Of a stretch of DNA of 64,000 nucleotides, positions 39,773 through 50,696 are shown piece by piece. How positions within the stretch are numbered: position 1 is the first letter of the stretch; each line of letters starts with the position of its first letter. Below the pieces are notes generated by a model. The model made no database searches. It saw only the letters and a list, made by a program, of their open reading frames with translations, and was not told the origin of the DNA. The stretch comes from Myxococcota bacterium (GTDB lineage: Bacteria > Myxococcota_A > Bradymonadia > UBA7976 > UBA1532): positions 62,001 to 126,000 of the forward strand of contig CAUJDF010000058.1 of NCBI GenBank assembly GCA_963169045.1, given 5' to 3'. The position numbers were made by a program, and so were the translations under genes.

Positions 39773-41011
39773 ATGTCCGGACTGGTTCCCCGACGCTCCA
39801 CGGCCCACCCGATCACGGCGGGCTACATCGACGACGACGCCTTCAAGGTGCTCCGTCGGCTGCAACAGTTCGGGTACGACGCCTACCTCGTCGGCGGCAG
39901 CGTACGCGACCTGTGCCTCGGCATGCGCCCGAAGGACTTCGACGTCGCGACGAGCGCGAGCCCCGGCGACGTCCGCAAGCTCTTCCGCAATTGTCGTCTC
40001 ATCGGTCGGCGCTTCCGCCTCGCCCACGTGCTCTTCGGCGGCAACAAGGTCATCGAGGTGGCCACCTTCCGGGCCCAACCGCCCGAAGAGGCCCACGGCG
40101 AGCTCATCACCGACGACAACGAGTTCGGCACGCCCGAGAGCGACGCGCTGCGGCGCGACTTCACGGTCAACGCGCTCTTCTACGACCAGCAGACGAACGA
40201 GATCATCGACTTCGTCGGCGGCCTCGGCGACCTCGAGCACCGCGTGCTGCGTTGCATCGGCGATCCGTCGGTGCGCTTCCGCGAGGATCCCATCCGCATG
40301 TTGCGGGCGGTCAAGTTCGCGGCGCGCCTCGACTTTTCGCTGCCGACCGCCGATCGCGACGCGATCCTCGCCCACCGCTTCGAGCTGAGCAAGGCGGCGA
40401 TCCCGCGGCTGCTCGAAGAGGTGCTGCGCATGCTCTGGGGCGGGCAGGCGGCGCGCTCGTTCACCATGCTCGAGGACCTGCGGCTGCTCGAGCTGCTGCT
40501 GCCCGAGGTCTCCGGCTTCCTCGGCCGCGACGCGTCCGACCCCTGGTCGCCGACGCGGGAGCTGCTGCGCGGCGTCGACCACCGCTGCGAGGGCCGACAG
40601 GAGATGAGCGGCGGCGTGCTGCTCGCTGCGCTGTTCTGGCCCATCTACTCGACGCTGGTCGAGCACCTGCCGCGCCGCCCGCGGGCTCGGCAGCTCAAGA
40701 CGCTCGCCGAGACGGTGGTCGGGCCGGCGGCGGTGCGCCTGCGCATCCCGCGGCGCGAGATCGCGACGCTGATCGCGGTGCTCGAGGGCCAGTACCGCTT
40801 CGAGGAGGTCAAGCGGAAGCGCGCGATGCGCGCCGCGTTCGCCCGCAGCCCGCACTTCTCGGCGCTGCTCGACTTCGTCGACCTGCGCGCCCGCGCCGGC
40901 GAGCTGGCCGAAGCCGGCCTCAAGGAGTGGCACGACCTCGCGGAGGAGCACCCCGGCCGCCGCCACGGCGAGATGTGGGTGCGCGCGCCGCGGCGCCGCG
41001 TCCGCCGGTAG
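39773..41011 (+). CDS. pcnB: Poly(A) polymerase / CCA-adding-type nucleotidyltransferase
   Basis: 412 aa class II nucleotidyltransferase adding A residues to RNA 3' ends, which promotes decay, or repairing tRNA CCA ends. LVGGSVRDLCLGMRPKDFDVAT gives the metal-binding D-x-D; RRDFTVNALFYD and LRAVKFAARLDF are the nucleotide-binding core. The Arg-rich C-terminal extension after about residue 320 favours PcnB over a CCA enzyme. No HD domain is present. Transcribed from the promoter at 39736 with almost no leader. Confidence 0.85.
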   Translation: MSGLVPRRSTAHPITAGYIDDDAFKVLRRLQQFGYDAYLVGGSVRDLCLGMRPKDFDVATSASPGDVRKLFRNCRLIGRRFRLAHVLFGGNKVIEVATFRAQPPEEAHGELITDDNEFGTPESDALRRDFTVNALFYDQQTNEIIDFVGGLGDLEHRVLRCIGDPSVRFREDPIRMLRAVKFAARLDFSLPTADRDAILAHRFELSKAAIPRLLEEVLRMLWGGQAARSFTMLEDLRLLELLLPEVSGFLGRDASDPWSPTRELLRGVDHRCEGRQEMSGGVLLAALFWPIYSTLVEHLPRRPRARQLKTLAETVVGPAAVRLRIPRREIATLIAVLEGQYRFEEVKRKRAMRAAFARSPHFSALLDFVDLRARAGELAEAGLKEWHDLAEEHPGRRHGEMWVRAPRRRVRR

Positions 41012-41093
41012 CGCCGAGGCCCGCCGCCGCACATTCGTTCAGGCGTGCGCCCCCGCGGCCGACGGTGGTAGGAGTCGCCAGGCAGACATCGCC

Positions 41094-42347
41094 GTGAGCC
41101 AGACGCCTCCCGCACCGCCGATCCCCGCACCGGCGCCGCCGACCGCGACGGCACGGCCGACCCACGGCCAGCGCGTCGCGCTCGCGTCCGGCCTCGCGCT
41201 CGGCGTCCTCGGCGCCGCGCTGCCGGCGATGGCGGCGCTGTACGCGCTGTCGCTCTCGCTCGGCGCGCTGGCCTGGTCCGAGGTGCTGCAGCACACCGGC
41301 GGCCTCGAGCCCTCGACGTTCGGCGGCGGCCTGTGGACGAGCGCGGCGGCGAACGGCGGCGTCCTGCTGTGGTGCGCCCTCCGCCGGCTGCGGTCGGGCA
41401 GGACGCCCGACTCGGCCGACCTCCGGCCGCTCGGCGCGCTCATCGGGCTGTATGCGGCGGGCATCGCGCTCGTGGTCCTCGACCTGACGCGCGCCGCGGA
41501 CGTGCCCGACGTGCTGACCACCTTCGTCGTGCTCGGCTGGGCCGAGCTGTGGACGGCGCTCGTCCCGATCGTGGGCCTCTACCTGCTCGGCATCGGCGTG
41601 GCGGCGCTGTGGCGCGCCGGCGCGGGATCGCCGGGCGGCGCGCGCCGGGTGACGGGCCTCGCCGGCGCGCTCGGGGCCGGCGGCGCCCTTTTGACCGCCG
41701 CGCTCCTCGCCGGTGCGAGCCTCGGATACGAGGATCAGGGCGGCGAGCCGGCGCCGCTCACCGTCCCGGGCGTCGAGGGGGCGCGTCAGGTCGCCGCCGA
41801 GATCGCCGCCGGGCTGGTGGCGCCGCGGCTGCCCGAACCGGACGCCGGGCCGGCGGACGCGTTCCAGGAGTGCGCCGAGGAGCTTGCGCGCGCCGTCGAC
41901 CGCAACGGCCGCAAGACGCTCGACAATACGCGGGCGCTCCTGGTGCGCGACGGCCTCGACCTCGCCGACGCCGAGGACGTGACCATGCGGACGCTGCTCA
42001 AGATCTGCGAGAAGTACCGGCACAAGCAGCCGCGCATCCGCTACTTCGTCAAGGCGGCGCGCCGCAACGGCTGGAAGCTGCAGCAGCGCCAGCGCCGGGA
42101 GCCCGTCTGGGACGACGTCGGCCTGCTCGCCGAGGCGCCCGACGACAGCGACGCGATCGAGGCCGACCTCGCCCGGATGCGCGCCGCGCGCGACGCGCTG
42201 CCCGGCCCCGACCAGGCCCTGCTCGAGATGCACTTCGAACAGGGGCTGACGTTCGAGGCGATCGCGGAGCGGCTCGGGCAGCCGGCGCCGACGCTGCGGC
42301 AGCGCGCGAAGCGCGTCCGCGATCGGCTGCGCGCGGCGCTCGAGTAG
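41094..42347 (+). CDS. Membrane protein fused to an ECF-like sigma factor domain
   Basis: 417 aa from GTG 41094. About residues 25-215 hold four or five hydrophobic helices. After a linker, about residues 253-417 look like an ECF sigma factor: a region 2-like part with DLADAEDVTMRTLLKICEK and RYFVKAARRNGWKLQQRQRR, and a region 4-like helix-turn-helix with LTFEAIAERLGQPAPTLRQR. This suggests a sigma factor tethered to the membrane, released or activated by an envelope signal. An odd helix count would place the sigma part outside, so four helices or an unseen one are needed. There is no anti-sigma neighbour. It lies directly upstream of the viperin operon. Confidence 0.75.
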   Translation: MSQTPPAPPIPAPAPPTATARPTHGQRVALASGLALGVLGAALPAMAALYALSLSLGALAWSEVLQHTGGLEPSTFGGGLWTSAAANGGVLLWCALRRLRSGRTPDSADLRPLGALIGLYAAGIALVVLDLTRAADVPDVLTTFVVLGWAELWTALVPIVGLYLLGIGVAALWRAGAGSPGGARRVTGLAGALGAGGALLTAALLAGASLGYEDQGGEPAPLTVPGVEGARQVAAEIAAGLVAPRLPEPDAGPADAFQECAEELARAVDRNGRKTLDNTRALLVRDGLDLADAEDVTMRTLLKICEKYRHKQPRIRYFVKAARRNGWKLQQRQRREPVWDDVGLLAEAPDDSDAIEADLARMRAARDALPGPDQALLEMHFEQGLTFEAIAERLGQPAPTLRQRAKRVRDRLRAALE

Positions 42348-42407
42348 AAAAAAAACGCAGGGCGCGTGTCACGAAAGGCGGCGCCGAGGCTGGAGACGTC
42401 GGAACGC

Positions 42408-42428
42408 CCGCGGACGAGGGGTCCGCGG
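42408..42428 (+). promoter_or_regulatory. Leader hairpin before the viperin ribosome site
   Basis: CCGCGGAC (42408-42415) and its exact complement (42421-42428) with a 5-nt loop lie eight bases upstream of the ribosome site GGGAGG near 42436-42441. It may be a terminator of the sigma-fusion gene, an attenuator, or a translational control element. The 103-bp gap also begins with an A8 run just after the sigma-fusion stop. Confidence 0.45.
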
Positions 42429-42450
42429 CCGCACCGGGAGGTCTTCCGCC

Positions 42451-43338
42451 ATGCGCGCCCACGCGCTGCCCGCGCCGGCCACGCTGCCGCCGTCGGTCAA
42501 CTACCACCTGCTCATCCCGTGCAACATGCGCTGCCTCGGCTGCTTCGCCACGTTCCACGACGTGCGCGCGGGGCTGCCGAAGGGCCTGCTGCCGCGCGCC
42601 GAGTCGCTGGCGCTCGTGCGCGCGCTCGCGCGCCGCTTCGAGAAGGTCACCTTCGCCGGCGGCGAGCCGACGCTGTGTCCCTGGCTCGACGAGATGCTCG
42701 CCGTCGCGCGCGCCGAGGGCGCGACGACGATGCTGGTCACGAACGGCTCGCGGCTGACGCGCGAATGGCTCGCGCGCGCGGCGCTCGACTGGCTGACGCT
42801 GAGCATCGACAGCCCGGACCCGGCGACCCACGTGGCGCTCGGCCGCGCGGTGAACGGGCGCGCGCTGCCCGTCGAGCGCTACGTCGCCGTGGCCGACGCG
42901 GCCCGCGCCCTCGGCATCGGCGTGAAGGTCAACACGGTCGTCTCGGCGCGCAACGCGGACGAGGACTTCTCGGCGCTCATCGCGCGCCTGCGTCCCGAGC
43001 GCTGGAAAGTGCTGCAGATGCTGCCGGTCGACGGACAGAACGACGGGCGCGTGGAGCCGCTGCTCATCGAGCGCGCGCGCTTCGACGCGTTCGTCGCGCG
43101 GCACCGTCCGGTCGGCACCGTCATGGTGCCCGAGGACAACGAGGCGATGACGGGGAGCTACGCGATGGTGGATCCGCAGGGCCGGTTCTTCGACAACACC
43201 GAGGGTCGATATCGCTACAGCGCGCCCATCCTCGCGGCGGGCATCGACGCGGCGTGGCGCGAGGTGCGCTTCGAGGCCGGGCGCTTCGCCGCGCGCGGCG
43301 GGCAGTACGACTGGGCGCGGACGACGGAGGGGGCGTGA
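42451..43338 (+). CDS. Prokaryotic viperin (ddh-nucleotide synthase, antiviral radical SAM enzyme)
   Basis: 295 aa. The radical SAM cluster motif is C24-x3-C28-x2-C31 in SVNYHLLIPCNMRCLGCF, matching viperin's SVNYH...CN..C..CF. Further viperin-specific blocks follow: FAGGEP (68-73), TNGS, IDSPD, KVNTVVSARNADED, RWKVLQMLPVDGQND, TVMVPEDNEAM, GSYAMVD, RFFDN and the C-terminal RGGQYDW. These blocks align in order with human viperin from memory. Characterised viperins convert CTP, GTP or UTP to 3'-deoxy-3',4'-didehydro forms that terminate viral RNA synthesis. Usual length for bacterial forms. The ribosome site GGGAGG supports ATG 42451. Its stop overlaps the MoxR gene start, so the ATPase and VWA proteins are probably functional partners. 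Confidence 0.93.
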   Translation: MRAHALPAPATLPPSVNYHLLIPCNMRCLGCFATFHDVRAGLPKGLLPRAESLALVRALARRFEKVTFAGGEPTLCPWLDEMLAVARAEGATTMLVTNGSRLTREWLARAALDWLTLSIDSPDPATHVALGRAVNGRALPVERYVAVADAARALGIGVKVNTVVSARNADEDFSALIARLRPERWKVLQMLPVDGQNDGRVEPLLIERARFDAFVARHRPVGTVMVPEDNEAMTGSYAMVDPQGRFFDNTEGRYRYSAPILAAGIDAAWREVRFEAGRFAARGGQYDWARTTEGA

Positions 43339-44921
43339 TGACCGGGGCGATGGACCTGACGACGAAGCTGCGGGCGGTGCGCGACGGGCTGCTCGAGGGC
43401 CTGGTGGAGCGCGAGGTGGCCATCCGGCTGGCGCTGCTGGCCGCCCTCGCCGGCGAGCACCTGCTGCTGATCGGGCCGCCGGGGACGGCGAAGAGCGAGC
43501 TGGCGCGCCGGCTGCGCCTGGCGTTCGCGGACGCGGCGCTGTTCGAGCGGCTGCTGACGCGGTTCACGGTGCCGGAGGAGCTGTTCGGCCCGCTGTCGAT
43601 CAAGGCGCTCGAGGAGGACCGCTACGAGCGGCAGACCGAGGGCTACCTGCCGGCGGCCCAGGTGGCGTTCCTCGACGAGATCTTCAAGGCCAACAGCGCC
43701 ATCCTCAACGCGCTGCTGACGCTGCTCAACGAGCGCGAGTTCGACAACGGGACGCGGCGCGTGCGGACGCCGCTCGTGGCTGCGATCGGGGCGAGCAACG
43801 AGCTGCCCGAGGGCGAGGAGCTCGACGCGCTCTACGACCGCTTCCTGCTGCGGATGCACGTGGTCCCCGTGTCGGACGCGGCGTTCCCGGCGCTGCTGGC
43901 GCTGCGCGGGCGCGCGGAGCCGGTCGTGCCGCGCCTGACCGTCGAGGACCTGCGCCGCGTGCAGATGGACGCCGAGGCCGTCGAGGTGCCCGAGGACGTG
44001 GTGGCGCTCCTCTGCGAGCTGCGGACGTGGTGCGCCGCCGAGCGGATCGCCGTGTCGGACCGGCGCTGGCGCAAGGTCGTGAAATTGCTACAGGTCTCGG
44101 CGCTGACGAACGGGCGCCGCGCGGTGTCGGTGTGGGACTGCTGGCTGCTGCAGTTCTGCCTGTGGGAGAGGCCGGAGCAGCAGGCGGCGCTGTATGCGTG
44201 GTACGCGGCGCGGGTGGGGGCGAGCGCGGCGTGGGATCCGGCGAAGCTGACGCGCATCGTCGTCGCCTGGGAGGGCAAGCTGCAGCGCGACCGGGACGCG
44301 CGGTCGCAGGCGCGCGACGCCGAGGGGCGGCCGCTCTACAAAGGCAACGACGGCAAGCCGACGACCGACGTCCAGGCGCGGGGTCAGGCGCGCCGCGGCA
44401 CGGAGCCGCTGTACCTCGCGCCGCCGGACTCGGCGGACGCCCGCGGCAACTGGATCCACGACCGCACTGGCGGCGGCGCGGGCTACACGCGCGATGCCCT
44501 GAAGGACCTGCAGCTCCCGCACCAAGGCCGCCGGTTTCGGGAATGGAGCGGGCAGACCGCCTACCTGGCCGACGAGAGCAACTGGCTCATGGAGGACGTC
44601 GACCTGCCGCCCTCCATGGAGCCGACGCGCCAGAAGCCGGAGTACGTCGAGCGCTGCCTGCACGACCTCGACGGGCTCGCCGAGAACGTGCGGCGCTACC
44701 AGGCGGCGCTCGCGGCGCACATCGCCTCGCTCGACGCCGACATTCGCGCGCACCTCTGGGTGACGCCGGAGTTCGCGGGGCCCGCGGCCGCCTCGCTGCA
44801 GGGCACCGCGAAGGAGGTCGAGGGGCTGCTGCGCCGCGTCGCCGCCGCGCGCGAGGGCTTCACGATGCTGCCGCGCGAGGTCGAGCCGCCCGCCCCGCGC
44901 CCCCAGGTCGAGGTGAAGTGA
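43338..44921 (+). CDS. MoxR AAA+ ATPase, RavA-like
   Basis: 527 aa cytoplasmic hexameric-type ATPase. Walker A GPPGTAKS (46-53), Walker B FLDEI (111-115) within FLDEIFKANSAILNALLTLL, the sensor/arginine region NELPEGEELDALYDRFLLR, and ERIAVSDRRWRK in the lid all match E. coli RavA in order. The C-terminal 230 residues correspond in place to the LARA/triple-helical region but look different, with an Asp/Arg/Gly-rich stretch. MoxR ATPases paired with VWA proteins act as chaperones that activate metalloenzymes (as NorQD and CbbQO do). ATG 43338 overlaps the viperin stop by one base, and its stop overlaps the VWA start (GTGA). Probable remodeller for, or effector with, viperin. Confidence 0.92.
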   Translation: MTGAMDLTTKLRAVRDGLLEGLVEREVAIRLALLAALAGEHLLLIGPPGTAKSELARRLRLAFADAALFERLLTRFTVPEELFGPLSIKALEEDRYERQTEGYLPAAQVAFLDEIFKANSAILNALLTLLNEREFDNGTRRVRTPLVAAIGASNELPEGEELDALYDRFLLRMHVVPVSDAAFPALLALRGRAEPVVPRLTVEDLRRVQMDAEAVEVPEDVVALLCELRTWCAAERIAVSDRRWRKVVKLLQVSALTNGRRAVSVWDCWLLQFCLWERPEQQAALYAWYAARVGASAAWDPAKLTRIVVAWEGKLQRDRDARSQARDAEGRPLYKGNDGKPTTDVQARGQARRGTEPLYLAPPDSADARGNWIHDRTGGGAGYTRDALKDLQLPHQGRRFREWSGQTAYLADESNWLMEDVDLPPSMEPTRQKPEYVERCLHDLDGLAENVRRYQAALAAHIASLDADIRAHLWVTPEFAGPAAASLQGTAKEVEGLLRRVAAAREGFTMLPREVEPPAPRPQVEVK

Positions 44922-46435
44922 CCGTGTTCGACGCACGCGCGCTCGACCGGCGCTACGCCTTCCTCGACGACCTGCCGGCGCACCTGCTGCCGGACGTCGT
45001 CACGCTCCCGCTCGACGGCCCGCTCGAGCAGCGGATCGCCGGCGTGCGCCGCTGGCGCGACGCCCTGCTCGCGGGCACGCTGCCGCCGCCCGACACGTGG
45101 CCGCCGCCGGAGATCGCGGCGCCGGCCCGCCGCGCGCTCGCCGACATGGACCTCGCGCGCTTCTGTCGCGACCAGCCCGAGCTCGTCGACGCGCTGCTCG
45201 CCGACGTCCTCGCCGCCTGGGCGCGGCGCGGCGAGACCTTCGCGTCCGAGGTGGCGGCGCAGCTGGCCGAGCTGGCCGCGCTCGAGCGCCGGCGGGCCGA
45301 CGCAGCCGAGGGCGAGCGCGCGAAGCGCGAGCGACGCCCGGCGCGCCCCGTGGCCGTCGACGAGGCCGCGCTGCGCGAGGCGGCGGCCCGCGCCGTCCGC
45401 GAGCGCGCCGTGGAGGCCGATCCGGACCTGCTCGCCGCGTGGGGCGAGCGCGCGCGCCTGTGGTCCGAGATCGCGGACGTCTTCGGCGACCTCGGCGAGA
45501 TGCTCGGCCGCGGCTGGGACCTCTCGCGCGGCGTCCTCCGCCAGACCGGCTGGACGGACCTGCTGCGCCTCCGCGCGCTCGTCGAGCAGCTGCCGCAGCT
45601 CCGCGACATCGTCCGCGCGCTCGGCCGCCTGCACGCCCGCGACGACGGCGAGTCGATCGCCGACCGGCTGCTCGTCCCGGTGCGGCGCCTCGAGGAGGAG
45701 CGGCGCGAGGTCCGCACGCCGCTCGCCCCCACCGAGACGCGCGGCGTCGAGCGCTCGGGCGAGGTCGCGCGCATGCTCCCGCTCGAGGCCGCCCTGCTCG
45801 GCCACCCGCGCCTGCGCCTCCTGTGGCACGCGCGGCGCGCCGAGCGCACCCTGCTCACCTACCGCTTCGAGGGGCTCGTCGCCGAGCGCGTCCTCGTGGA
45901 GCGCGAGGCGCACGACGAGACCGAGGGCCGCCGCCCGCGCCCCGAGCGCGGCCCGATCGTCGCGATCGTCGACACCTCCGGCTCCATGCATGGGCTGCCG
46001 GAGCGCGTCGCCAAGGCGATCGTGCTCGAGGCGCTGCGCACGGCGCACGCCGAGCGCCGCCGCTGCTTCCTCTACGCATACAGCGGCCCCGGCGAGGTGC
46101 TCGAGCACGCGCTCGACGTGTCGCCCGAGGGCGTCGGCCGGCTGCTGCAGTTCCTCGCCTTCTCGTTCGGCGGCGGCAACGACGAGGCGGGTGTGCTGAG
46201 GCGCGTCCTCGCGCGCCTCGAGGCGCCGGACTGGCGGCGCGCCGACGTCCTGTTCGTCAGCGACGGCGAGTGGCCCGTGCCGCCCGGGCTCGTCGAACCG
46301 GTCGCCCGCGCGCGCGACGCCGGCGCGCGTTTCCACGGCGTCCAGATCGGCAACCGCGGCCCCACCGGCCTCCACGCGCTCTGCGATCCGGTGCACGTCT
46401 TCGAGGACTGGGCGACCGCCGGCGGCTGGCGCTGA
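44918..46435 (+). CDS. VWA-domain protein, ViaA-like
   Basis: 505 aa. The N-terminal 330 residues are helical and charged; the C-terminal VWA domain (about 345-500) has an intact MIDAS, DTSGSMHG (about 352-359), then FSFGGGNDEAG and LFVSDGEW. The order and wording resemble E. coli ViaA (length 483 aa there, from memory), the partner of RavA. The VWA binds a client through Mg2+ and hands it to the ATPase. GTG 44918 overlaps the ATPase stop. Last gene of the viperin operon; followed by a hairpin at 46441 that separates it from the convergent peroxiredoxin gene. Confidence 0.9.
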   Translation: MTVFDARALDRRYAFLDDLPAHLLPDVVTLPLDGPLEQRIAGVRRWRDALLAGTLPPPDTWPPPEIAAPARRALADMDLARFCRDQPELVDALLADVLAAWARRGETFASEVAAQLAELAALERRRADAAEGERAKRERRPARPVAVDEAALREAAARAVRERAVEADPDLLAAWGERARLWSEIADVFGDLGEMLGRGWDLSRGVLRQTGWTDLLRLRALVEQLPQLRDIVRALGRLHARDDGESIADRLLVPVRRLEEERREVRTPLAPTETRGVERSGEVARMLPLEAALLGHPRLRLLWHARRAERTLLTYRFEGLVAERVLVEREAHDETEGRRPRPERGPIVAIVDTSGSMHGLPERVAKAIVLEALRTAHAERRRCFLYAYSGPGEVLEHALDVSPEGVGRLLQFLAFSFGGGNDEAGVLRRVLARLEAPDWRRADVLFVSDGEWPVPPGLVEPVARARDAGARFHGVQIGNRGPTGLHALCDPVHVFEDWATAGGWR

Positions 46436-46933: not shown

Positions 46934-48991
46934 TCAGGCGATAACACGGTCACCGGTGCCGTACAACGCGGCGACGTCGGCCTCGATGGCCTCGCGCAGC
47001 GCCGCCGCCTCCCCGGCGTGGGGGCCCCCGGCGGCCCCGTCGCGCGGCGCGCCTTCGAGCGCCTGCAGGCGCAGGGCGCGCCCGGCGAGCGCCGCCACGG
47101 CGGGCGCGTCCGGGGCCACCGGAGGCAGCGGGAGGTCGCGCAGCTCGGCCACCTTGATCTGCGGGAAGAGCCGGTCGTCCTCCTGGCAGCGGGCGCGGAA
47201 GAGCGCGGCGACGACCCGGCTGTTCACGAACGCCAGCAACGCGCCGGGCGGCCACGGTTGTCCCGGCAGCAGGCGCGCCACGTAGACCGACTGGTCGCAG
47301 TACAGCGGCGCCTCGGTGTAGGCCGCGCAGAGCGTCTCCCCGAGGATCTTGCGCACGAGCAGGCGCGGCCCGTCGAAGAAGCGCGGGTGCCGCGGTTCCT
47401 TGAGCCACGGGCCGTAGCGCACGTAGCGCGTCCCGCGCCACCACAGGCGGTACGGACCGAGGTCGCGCCCGCAGAGCTCCGGGGCGAGGCCCTCGCCCGG
47501 CTTGCCGGCGTGGTGGACGCGCGCCCGGATCTCCGCCGGCGTGTGCATGCAGCGGTGATACGGGTTGATGCCGCGCGTCACCTCCGCCACGTCGCCGAGC
47601 GTCGTCGTCCAGGCGCTCGCGCGGTCGAGCAGGTCCGCCGCCGCCGTCGTGCGCGCGAGCGCCAGCGGGGCCTCGGGCTGCGCCGCGTCGTAGACCAGCG
47701 CCCCGCCGGCCCCGCCGGCGATCGGCACCCGGTCCGGCGTCCGTCCGCCACGCCGCACGTGCACCGCCACCGTCTCCACACCGGCCCCGAAGGCCTCGGC
47801 CGGCAGCTCGACCACCCGCTCGAGCCCGTTGTGGGCCAACAGGAGGCGCCGCAGCGCGCCCCCGCGCAGCACGCTCATCCACGCGTTCGGCACCACCATG
47901 ACCACCGCGCCGCCCGGACGCGTCGCCGCGAGCGCCAGCTCGAGGAAGAGCGGGTACGGGTCGAGCTGGTACTCGGCGACGGTGTAGGCGCGGCGGTACA
48001 GCGCGTCGTTGCCGGCGAGCGCGCCGAGCCGGCCGGCGCGGTAGGGCGGGTTGCCGACCACGAGGTCGAACGGCCCGCCGAACGCCGCGAGCACGTCGAG
48101 CGCGGCGCCTGCCGCCGCCGGCCCCGCCGCCTCGCCCGCGCCCGACCGGCCGTCGTCCCCGCGCGCCGCCGGCGCCCCCGCGCCCGACCGGCCGTCGTCC
48201 CCGCGCGCCGCCGGCGCCCCCGCGCCCGCCCGGCCGTCGTCCCCGCGCGCCGCCGGCGCCCCCGCGCCCGCCCGGCCGTCGTCCCCGCGCGCCGCCGGCG
48301 CCCCCGCGTCCGCCCGGCCGTCGTCCCCGCGCGCCGCCGGCGCCCCCGCGCCCGCCCGACCGTCGGCGGCGGCGGCGTCGAAGAGCGCGAGCTGCCGCGG
48401 CGGCTCGGCGCCCGCGACGCGCCGCCGCGCGAGGCCGAGCAGCGGATCGCCGCAGCGGATGTCTCCGCGGCCGCCCGCGAGCCACAGCGCCGCCCGGCAG
48501 ACGGCGACGGCGAGCGGATCGGTGTCGGCGCCGCAAACGACCTCGGCCCCGCGCGCGAGCGCGCCGAGCAGGAACCGCCCGCCGCCGCAAGCCGGGTCGA
48601 GGACGCGCCCGCCGACCGACACGCCGTCGAGCGCGCGCGCCACGAGGTCGGCGGGCGTGTAGTAGCGGCCGGCGGCGCGGCGCCCCTCGCCGGGATCGGC
48701 CGCGGCGTAGGCGTCGCCGAGGCGTCCGGGATCGGCCGCCACCGCCGCCCCGTCGAGCAGCGCCCAGGCGACCCCGAGGCGTCCGGGATCGGCCGCCACC
48801 GCCGCCCTGTCGAGCACCGCCCTCGCGTCCCCGGGTGCGACCGGCGTCGCGTCGAACAGCGCGCTCCCCGACGCGCGCTTCAGCCGGGGCGCGGTGTCGC
48901 GCCACCACTCGCCGACGTCCGCCCCCGGCCCGCCGACGAGCCCGCGCTCCACCGCCGCCCGCGCCGCCCACAGCGCGAGCCAGGCGCGCAC
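46934..48991 (-). CDS. N6-adenine DNA methyltransferase with TaqI-type target-recognition domain
   Basis: 685 aa from GTG 48991. Motif X-like RYYTPADLVARALD and motif I VLDPACGGGRF (SAM binding) are followed, after a repetitive insertion, by motif IV VVGNPPY (catalytic NPPY of adenine methyltransferases). The C-terminal region YCDQSVYVARL...LLAFVNSRVVAALF and FPQIKVAELRDLPLP matches a TaqI-like specificity domain. No endonuclease domain is visible, so it is either orphan or its nuclease lies elsewhere. Two tandem repeat arrays lie inside the gene. The start is uncertain: a different frame upstream (49236-49018) also looks protein-like, so the N-terminus may be frameshifted. Confidence 0.82.
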   Translation of the reverse strand: MRAWLALWAARAAVERGLVGGPGADVGEWWRDTAPRLKRASGSALFDATPVAPGDARAVLDRAAVAADPGRLGVAWALLDGAAVAADPGRLGDAYAAADPGEGRRAAGRYYTPADLVARALDGVSVGGRVLDPACGGGRFLLGALARGAEVVCGADTDPLAVAVCRAALWLAGGRGDIRCGDPLLGLARRRVAGAEPPRQLALFDAAAADGRAGAGAPAARGDDGRADAGAPAARGDDGRAGAGAPAARGDDGRAGAGAPAARGDDGRSGAGAPAARGDDGRSGAGEAAGPAAAGAALDVLAAFGGPFDLVVGNPPYRAGRLGALAGNDALYRRAYTVAEYQLDPYPLFLELALAATRPGGAVVMVVPNAWMSVLRGGALRRLLLAHNGLERVVELPAEAFGAGVETVAVHVRRGGRTPDRVPIAGGAGGALVYDAAQPEAPLALARTTAAADLLDRASAWTTTLGDVAEVTRGINPYHRCMHTPAEIRARVHHAGKPGEGLAPELCGRDLGPYRLWWRGTRYVRYGPWLKEPRHPRFFDGPRLLVRKILGETLCAAYTEAPLYCDQSVYVARLLPGQPWPPGALLAFVNSRVVAALFRARCQEDDRLFPQIKVAELRDLPLPPVAPDAPAVAALAGRALRLQALEGAPRDGAAGGPHAGEAAALREAIEADVAALYGTGDRVIA
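48139..48366. repeat. In-frame 42-bp minisatellite inside the methyltransferase gene
   Basis: Five full 42-bp units start at 48139, 48181, 48223, 48265 and 48307, plus an 18-bp partial. Each encodes GAPAARGDDGRAGA with one or two changes. The array lies between motifs I and IV, so copy-number change would alter loop length without breaking the frame. No spacers, so not CRISPR. Confidence 0.93.
48717..48830. repeat. Tandem 57-bp duplication inside the methyltransferase gene
   Basis: Two units (48717-48773 and 48774-48830) share a nearly identical first 45 bp, including CGTCCGGGATCGGCC. They encode a 19-residue unit with AAVAADPGRLG twice. The reading frame is kept. Confidence 0.85.
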
Positions 48992-49286
48992 GTCGCCGCC
49001 GAGCGCCCGGCGCGCGCTCAACCCGGCACCCGCGCGGTCGGCGGACGCACACGCCCGCAGGGAGGCGTCCGCGTCCGACCCGCCTCGAGCGAAGCGCCGC
49101 CGGCGGCCGCCGGCCCGTCGCCGCCCACCGGGATCGAGGAGGCCGCGGGCTTCCGGCGCGGCGTCCGGGCGCCCCGGTCCGCCAGCGGCGCCGTCGCGGG
49201 AGGAACGCTCTCGTTCAGGTGCACGTTCAAGTTCACGACCGGCGCGGCGCGTCCCGCGAGCCGTGCTCGCCTCGTCGTCGCCCCGG

Positions 49287-50696
49287 TCAGCCGCCGAGCA
49301 GCCGCAGCGCGATCTGGGAGGAGACGTTGGCCTGAGCGAGCACGGCGACGTTGGCCTGCTCGCGCAGCCGCCCGAGCAGCAGGTTGGCCGACTCCTGGGC
49401 GAAGTCGGTGTCGACGATGCGGCTCTGCGCGGCGGCCACGTTCTCGGCCGCCCCGGAGAGGTTGTCGATGGCCGACTGGAAGCGGTTCTGCAGCGCCCCG
49501 AGCCGTGCGCGCCGGCCCGTGACCTGGGCGAGCGCGCGGTCGGCGATCTCGAGCGCCCGGTCCGCGCCCTCGGGGGTGCGCACGTCGATCGTCGACACCG
49601 ACGAACCCGGCGGCACACCCACGATGCCCGCCCCGAGCCCCGCGTCGGCCGGATCGGCGCCCGCCACGGTGAACTGCGCGTCGCTCGTGAGGGTGACGGT
49701 GCCGGTCGTCGTCCCGGTCTGCAGGCCGGTGGTCGCCCCCGCCGTCCCGGTCGCCTCGACGTCGATGTTGCGGCCGTCCTTCGCCGTCAGCGTCAGGCCG
49801 CCGTCCGCGTTGCGCGTGGCGACGACGCCCGTCTCGTCGGAGACGGCGTTGATGGCGCCACGCAGCGCGTCGCCGGCGTCGCCCGCCGCGACGTTCACGC
49901 CGGTGATCGTCACGCCATTGATCTCGAGGCGGTTCGCCGCGTCGAGCGTCCCGCCGCCGGCGGCGTCACCCTCGACCGCCGTCGAGTTCACCGTCGCGGT
50001 CACGCCCGTGTCGTCGGTCGACGCGTTGATCGCCGCTGCGAGCGCGATGGCGCTGCCGGTGCGCTGCGCCGTCGATCGGGTGTCGTCGGCGATCTGCGTG
50101 GCGCGGATGGCGACGCCGTTGATCGTCAGCTCGCCCGGCTGCAGGCCGGAGGCGTCGATGGCGCCGCTCGTCGCCACCGCCGCCCGCCCGAGGCTGCCGG
50201 CGCGCGCGTCGAACGCGCCCACCGAGACCGTCTCGCTCGAGCCGGCTCCGACCTGGAACGTGCGCGTCCCCGCGGTGCCGTCGAGCAGGCGCTGGCCGTT
50301 GAACGTCGTCGTGCCGCCGATGCGGTCGATCTCCGCGCCGAGCTGGTCGATCTCGCCCTGGATGGCCCGCCGGTCGGCCGCGCTCAGCGCGCCGTTGCCC
50401 GCCTGGACCGCGAGCTCGCGGATGCGCTGCAGCGCGTCGGTCGTCCCGGCGAGCGCGCCCTCTTCGGTCTGCGCGAGCGAGATGCCGTCGCTGGCATTGC
50501 GCACTGCCTGGTTCAGCCCGCGCAGCTGCGAGTTGAGACGGCTGCCGATGGCGAGCCCCGCCGCGTCGTCGGCCGCCGACTGCACGCGCAGCCCGCTCGA
50601 CAGCCGCGAGAACGAGCGCGAAACGATCGCCTGGTTGCGGCGCAGGGCGTTCAGCGCGTTCAGCGTGCGCTGGTTGTCGTTGATCCCGATGCCCAT
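49287..50696 (-). CDS. fliC: Flagellin
   Basis: 469 aa filament protein exported through the flagellar type III apparatus. The N-terminal D0/D1 helices (RLSSGLRVQSAADDAAGLAIGS, NDGISLAQTEEGAL form) and the C-terminal D1/D0 region (LGALQNRFQSAIDNLSGAAENV, ending SSQIALRLLGG) are complete. The centre holds Flagellin-IN-type motifs such as ELTINGVAIRA and LEINGVTITG, so the surface domain is modest in size. No other flagellar gene lies in the window. A -35/-10 pair lies upstream at 50745-50716. Divergent from sfsA. Confidence 0.95.
   Translation of the reverse strand: MGIGINDNQRTLNALNALRRNQAIVSRSFSRLSSGLRVQSAADDAAGLAIGSRLNSQLRGLNQAVRNASDGISLAQTEEGALAGTTDALQRIRELAVQAGNGALSAADRRAIQGEIDQLGAEIDRIGGTTTFNGQRLLDGTAGTRTFQVGAGSSETVSVGAFDARAGSLGRAAVATSGAIDASGLQPGELTINGVAIRATQIADDTRSTAQRTGSAIALAAAINASTDDTGVTATVNSTAVEGDAAGGGTLDAANRLEINGVTITGVNVAAGDAGDALRGAINAVSDETGVVATRNADGGLTLTAKDGRNIDVEATGTAGATTGLQTGTTTGTVTLTSDAQFTVAGADPADAGLGAGIVGVPPGSSVSTIDVRTPEGADRALEIADRALAQVTGRRARLGALQNRFQSAIDNLSGAAENVAAAQSRIVDTDFAQESANLLLGRLREQANVAVLAQANVSSQIALRLLGG

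Follow-up and report, generated by a model that had tools for sequence, protein, structure and literature searches.

What is a protein that joins a membrane bundle to a sigma factor-like domain doing directly in front of a viperin operon, and on which side of the membrane does the sigma-like part lie? We addressed this question for one gene, here termed TM-sigma, in a stretch of DNA of 64,000 nucleotides from a Myxococcota bacterium (the whole stretch is henceforth referred to as the window). What triggers viperin, CBASS and BREX, and by what means infection is sensed at the level of the envelope, are largely unsettled questions. One family common to all three, with a testable topology, is a direct handle on triggering.

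A membrane bundle and a sigma fold in front of a viperin operon

The gene and the operon that follows it comprise four features.

41094..42347, plus strand: TM-sigma gene, 417 aa; proline-rich tail (predicted cytoplasmic), five-helix membrane bundle, sigma-2/sigma-4-like C-terminal domain
42451..43338, plus strand: prokaryotic viperin (radical SAM), 295 aa (NF038283, PADLOC pVip)
43338..44921, plus strand: MoxR/RavA-like AAA ATPase, 527 aa, its start overlapping the viperin stop (PF20030 bpMoxR)
44918..46435, plus strand: VWA protein (ViaA/CoxE-like), its start overlapping the MoxR stop (PF05762; similarity to NF008230 below the cut-off)

The viperin was detected with NF038283 (285 bits against a cut-off of 180) and the PADLOC pVip model (E=7e-84), and the ATPase with PF20030 bpMoxR (E=9.5e-60, 201.6 bits against 27). 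The MoxR and VWA genes (43338-46435) missed the NCBIfam equivalog cut-offs for RavA-ViaA (276.9 against 681 bits and 167.8 against 500 bits), and we read them as relatives of RavA-ViaA, not as members. Given the stop/start overlaps, viperin, MoxR and VWA look translationally coupled. TM-sigma is on the same strand, and its stop is separated from viperin by a gap of 103 bp. Two genes past the VWA gene, the minus-strand gene at 46934-49618 probably encodes an N6-adenine DNA methylase/restriction protein and contains a tandem repeat that stays in frame, GAPAARGDDGRA.

TM-sigma has a GTG start in the list of open reading frames. Its third-position GC is 0.92-1.00 over the whole gene, membrane half included, which indicates that the frame is coding over its full length, and the architecture of membrane bundle plus sigma-like domain recurs in at least 15 other loci. 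The AlphaFold model of the protein (16-row alignment, mean pLDDT 83, pTM 0.51) begins with five long helices, continues through a linker of low confidence and has more helices past residue 225. An earlier reading made from the sequence alone (the sequence-only reading) had described a 417-residue protein that starts with four or five helices and ends with region 2- and region 4-like parts. The coordinates, the TIGR02937 match and the AlphaFold and Foldseek results agree with this layout, and the helices in the model number five.

41163..41297, plus strand: helix 1, aa 24-68, modelled as a single long helix (AlphaFold)
41310..41393, plus strand: helix 2, aa 73-100, then the basic loop RRLRSGR (AlphaFold, sequence)
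41424..41486, plus strand: helix 3, aa 111-131, then the acidic loop DLTRAADVPD (AlphaFold, sequence)
41508..41627, plus strand: helix 4, aa 139-178, then the basic segment WRAGAGSPGGARR (AlphaFold, sequence)
41631..41726, plus strand: helix 5, the last, aa 180-211, uncharged core 186-212; basic before, acidic after (AlphaFold, charge counts)
41856..42098, plus strand: sigma region-2-like part, aa 255-335 (TIGR02937, AlphaFold helices, Foldseek)
42147..42341, plus strand: sigma region-4-like helix-turn-helix, aa 352-416 (PF04545/PF08281, superposition on 2h27)

HMM comparison with ECF families, a check that the sequence-only reading had proposed, upheld the sigma-like character of the C-terminal part. 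TIGR02937 (sigma70-ECF) matched residues 284-416 at E=2.5e-12 and 46.7 bits, above its curated cut-off of 42.9, and the Pfam models Sigma70_r4 (PF04545) and r4_2 (PF08281) both scored above cut-off in the C-terminal half. Structure prediction, likewise proposed there, recovered regions 2 and 4 of the ECF fold: the best Foldseek matches of the AlphaFold model were all ECF sigma factors (probability 1.00); their modest E-values (about 4e-3) probably reflect the lack of any match to the membrane half. In the model, region 4 superposes on the DNA-bound region 4 of sigma-E (2h27) at 1.0-1.1 Å. A structure model of the one-helix relative G366 again retrieved ECF sigma factors with probability 1.00, and a profile of nine members matched solved ECF sigma structures at E=1.5e-13.

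The TM-sigma family and its defence neighbours

Among 379 genomes of the window's phylum, we found 16 intact members (the window G000, G008, G011, G198, two in G352, G041, G020, G126, G350, G026, G293, G366, G354, G368 and G176). The queries were the whole protein and, separately, its membrane and sigma parts, and the searches were also run from the viperin side; G176 was the last to be found. In the class that was searched completely (57 genomes), members scored E of about 1e-44 or better as against 1e-16 for ordinary ECFs, and the split copy of G012 scored 9e-21. Three damaged copies stand outside the 16. In G012 (L009) the membrane and sigma halves are in different frames, and in G019 (L021) the sigma part is lost to a deletion that runs into the next gene. 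G066 (L023) was considered as a soluble member and rejected as a broken copy, a short MKK-hydrophobic start and the first cysteine motif lying upstream in another frame. No relatives were detected in the viral contigs or in the plasmids searched, and a single scan of genome contigs returned only three loci, with nothing beyond those matching G008, G011 and G012. The search for other membrane-sigma fusions suggested in the sequence-only reading has yielded the same architecture in at least 15 other loci, mostly beside defence genes. TM-sigma proteins appear to be an undescribed family: a literature search that covered mainly open-access papers returned no earlier account of viperin, CBASS or BREX operons with such a protein.

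In the phylum, 36 viperins were found, and eight of them have a TM-sigma member (one a remnant) at most one gene away. Viperin is directly beside the member in G000, G012, G352, G041, G126 and G350 and divergent from it in G020; in G019 it comes after a beta-CASP gene that adjoins the TM-sigma remnant. Where a genome was seen to have both genes, they were adjacent in eight out of nine cases, which is not chance for a family that fewer than 20 of the 379 genomes carry. Other members keep different company. In G008, SAVED-EAD5, TM-sigma, a SMODS cyclase and E1-E2 form a type II CBASS operon. TM-sigma is followed in order by a beta-CASP nuclease, PglZ, BrxD and BrxHI in G198, lies downstream of a PglZ-like, BrxD and helicase set in G293, and is divergent from BrxD and a helicase in G026, with a TauD-like enzyme and bpMoxR-VWA thereafter. 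It stands beside GmrSD and a GajB-like helicase, then a B12 radical-SAM enzyme, in G366, and precedes a DUF4258 gene, a Mokosh-like helicase, a PLD nuclease and a CARF-RtcR regulator in G176. The neighbours of the members in G354 and G368 and of the second G352 copy were checked and none is a recognised defence gene, and the G011 contig stops just after TM-sigma. With members beside viperin, type II CBASS, BREX-type and Mokosh-like genes, the link of the family to defence is strong; the association with the viperin operon that the sequence-only reading had pointed to is supported and extends to these other systems.

Several further features of these loci were recorded. Beta-CASP/metallo-beta-lactamase genes lie directly 3' of TM-sigma at L020:6464-8500, L021:7520-8719 and L023:6596-8473; they may encode an effector or belong to the module. 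Small DUF4258-like genes occur near TM-sigma in three unrelated defence loci (L055:9341-9613, L095:5813-6220 and L122:8944-9414; two called by sequence only and one by a weak Pfam match), and their product is possibly a toxin-like partner. In G354 and G368, TM-sigma is paired with a conserved protein that is about 155 aa long and has no known domain (L096:8359-8823, L097:8450-8965). At L093:1774-4816 (G026), compared with 42451-44921 of the window, a TauD-like dioxygenase occupies the slot of viperin before the same bpMoxR-VWA pair. Two viperins (L055:7929-9344 and L058:1982-3478) carry a C-terminal nucleotide kinase fusion, deoxynucleotide monophosphate kinase-like and thymidylate kinase-like, respectively.

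Predicted topology, cysteines and the polymerase contact

The helix matching helix 5 of the window protein is the sole membrane helix found in all members. Helices number one (G366), three (G041, G020, G026 and the second G352 copy) or five (the rest), as counted partly by a simple hydrophobicity scan, in which a few members have helices fused together or split; the last helix of G366 is its only membrane segment. Summed over 15 members, the 20-residue flank before the last helix contains 63 K/R and 7 D/E, as against 22 K/R and 69 D/E in the flank after it. Net charge drops across this helix in 15 of 15 members, which are related, so that this count is not independent from one member to another, nor are the cysteine and glutamine counts below. 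G176, found once the charge rule was set, has four K/R and no D/E before the helix and none and seven after it, which brings the step to all 16 intact members. The last segment is an uncharged run of 18-33 residues in every member, whereas a run of at least 19 occurs in only 4 of 36 soluble controls, though these are far longer in total.

Under the positive-inside rule, the basic-to-acidic step across the last helix places the sigma-like domain most likely outside the cytoplasm. This placement depends solely on the last segment being a genuine single span; charge rules can fail, and the helix is just moderately hydrophobic in G008 and G026. The sequence-only reading had a cytoplasmic sigma part in mind and left unsettled how many helices would keep it there. 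The count is now one, three or five, always odd, and together with the charge step in 16 of 16 members it predicts the opposite side of the membrane, an outcome that the reading itself had named as grounds for refuting its proposal.

Two cysteine codons in the window mark the most conserved residues of the family.

41871..41873, plus strand: Cys260 codon, invariant in the family (alignments)
42006..42008, plus strand: Cys305 codon, invariant where its part of the protein is retained (alignments)

In an alignment of 16 sequences, only the column of Cys260 is invariant; Cys305 is missing from none of the sequences in which that part is kept, and both were invariant in further comparisons. The domains of 15 members contain 2, 4, 4, 4, 4, 5, 4, 8, 6, 4, 6, 4, 6, 6 and 4 cysteines. 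The number is thus even in 14 of 15 (p=5e-4) and, with the eight of G176, in 15 of 16; G041, with five, is the sole odd member. The mean for ordinary ECFs from this phylum is 1.3 cysteines. The additional cysteines are gained or lost pairwise, and the window protein is without both of the second pair. We infer from these paired, even numbers a disulphide pattern in the sigma-like domain, and hence an oxidising compartment.

The glutamine of region 2.2 is a contact of sigma factors with core RNA polymerase, and its position is one that we take to be Q406 of sigma-70 and Q80 of sigma-32. The window protein has methionine there. The glutamine is present in 2 of 15 members as against 14 of 15 ordinary ECFs (Fisher p=2e-5), and with G176, the 16th member, which has valine, it is lost in 14 of 16. 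The helix-turn-helix with basic residues is retained in most members. From these residues, polymerase binding by the sigma-like domain appears doubtful, because the glutamine is lost, and nucleic-acid binding plausible, because the helix-turn-helix is kept.

Candidate functions and known relatives

In our judgement the chances are about even that the window protein is an ECF/sigma-70-derived, disulphide-held ectodomain on a membrane bundle, acting as an envelope sensor that fronts anti-phage operons. TM-sigma would be their portable front part: during infection the ectodomain, its helix-turn-helix retained but its polymerase-contact residue lost, would bind nucleic acid or some component of the phage, the bundle would relay a signal inwards, and the co-encoded effectors (in the window, viperin with MoxR-VWA) would then act. 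The fold, the bundle, the family and its defence link are computational results, the outside location and the disulphides are predicted from sequence statistics, and the ligand and the inward signalling are the parts that we infer. The more specific proposal of a sigma-70 factor turned into an extracytoplasmic, disulphide-stabilised receptor for nucleic acid or phage, used interchangeably at the front of viperin, CBASS, BREX-type and Mokosh-like modules, is put forward tentatively and is rather doubtful. A sigma fold that is truly outside would be a novel use of a very well known transcription fold, and a receptor of this kind would be a bacterial counterpart, in logic only, of the outward-facing nucleic-acid receptors of animal immunity.

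A real possibility, if on the improbable side, is that proposed by the sequence-only reading, a self-tethered cytoplasmic sigma factor whose last segment does not cross the membrane and which, freed by phage damage, proteolysis or a cysteine redox or metal switch, transcribes the neighbouring defence operon. The sigma-like fold with regions 2 and 4 and the operon link agree with this proposal, and its best argument is that the gene fronts unrelated effector operons, once divergently from viperin (G020), as a regulator would. There is also precedent in ECF36 members with three or four N-terminal helices (PMC8999054), and the same paper describes cytoplasmic ECFs that carry conserved, functional cysteines (CorE, ECF57), so that cytoplasmic metal or redox sites are a possible role for the cysteines here. 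The topology, the cysteine pairing and the glutamine loss tell against it: the charge step is found in 16 of 16 members, the last segment is uncharged in all of them, modelled as a helix in the window protein and the only membrane segment of G366, cysteine numbers are even, and most members lack the polymerase-contacting glutamine. As these are predictions, they weaken the proposal. A sigma-70 promoter and terminator scan of 40950-42520 gave nothing useful, with no promoter-like site before viperin, and is blind to ECF promoters. Either outcome, inside or outside, is informative. If inside, the protein would apparently be the first membrane-tethered sigma factor at the head of defence operons of several kinds, though its novelty would then shrink to that of another form of membrane-tethered sigma factor.

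It is unlikely that the protein is instead a stand-alone envelope defence whose outward domain grips phage DNA or protein and blocks entry, with no signal to its neighbours. A DNA-binding fold predicted to face outwards and an occurrence in several kinds of defence island would suit such a role, but the gene mostly sits tightly at the operon front (103 bp before viperin) and not loosely in islands. That it travels with defence islands as a passenger, its role having nothing to do with phage, is less likely again: the copies in G354 and G368 and the second one in G352 fit this idea, whereas the viperin adjacency in eight of nine genomes does not, nor does G176, from a later search and again at the head of a defence cluster (Mokosh-like). 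A chance frame or fusion artefact in GC-rich DNA, conceivable in a window rich in long spurious ORFs, was ruled out to a negligible residue by the homologues, with the architecture kept in 15 other loci of diverse families, and by coding third-position GC throughout.

We compared the putative envelope sensor with known systems. TM-sigma shares with the ECF sigma factors (TIGR02937 superfamily) the region 2 and 4 fold, their order and a sigma-E-like helix-turn-helix; it differs in standing behind a membrane bundle, in its predicted outside location, in its paired cysteines and in having mostly lost the glutamine. The view in the sequence-only reading that sigma factors are normally separate from membrane parts was too strong, as ECF48/52/53, IutY and some ECF36 are fused (PMC8999054). 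Membrane helices are N-terminal to sigma, as in TM-sigma, in ECF36 with an N-terminal extension and DUF2275; PMC8999054 regards the extensions as fused anti-sigma factors, with sigma cytoplasmic. A Pfam search of the window protein at E≤1 gave no match to DUF2275. ECF48/52/53 (SCO4117) and IutY likewise hold a membrane-bound sigma within one protein, with a cytoplasmic N-terminal sigma and the membrane part afterwards (PMC8999054 and PMC5826349); the order in TM-sigma is the reverse. The ECF52-type layout of N-terminal sigma, zinc finger, TM and outer domain does not apply, the order being reversed and no zinc-finger match being obtained in TM-sigma. The passages of PMC8999054 and PMC5826349 that we consulted report no defence link for ECF36, ECF48/52/53 or IutY.

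Among defence systems, the gene downstream of TM-sigma belongs to pVip, whereas TM-sigma is no described pVip component, and no PADLOC model matches it. Another gene of defence operons, CapW, is to our knowledge not membrane-bound. CapW is a WYL-domain transcription factor of CBASS and, like TM-sigma, a regulator-like gene within a defence operon, but it is not sigma-like (PMC9122588). The MoxR-VWA ternary conflict systems (PMC7159879) have a bpMoxR-type ATPase and VWA pair like that downstream of the window viperin; no third component of theirs (beta-propeller, VMAP or iSTAND) was identified adjoining the pair in the window, and TM-sigma may take the sensor place. An ECF sigma gene has been noted next to EACC2-caspase conflict systems (PMC8195603). 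In a second, different pairing, at the second viperin locus of G352 (L059:8502-14495), a sigma factor again accompanies viperin and CBASS genes: the viperin there comes after SAVED, DncV-like cyclase, soluble ECF sigma factor and Ser/Thr kinase genes.
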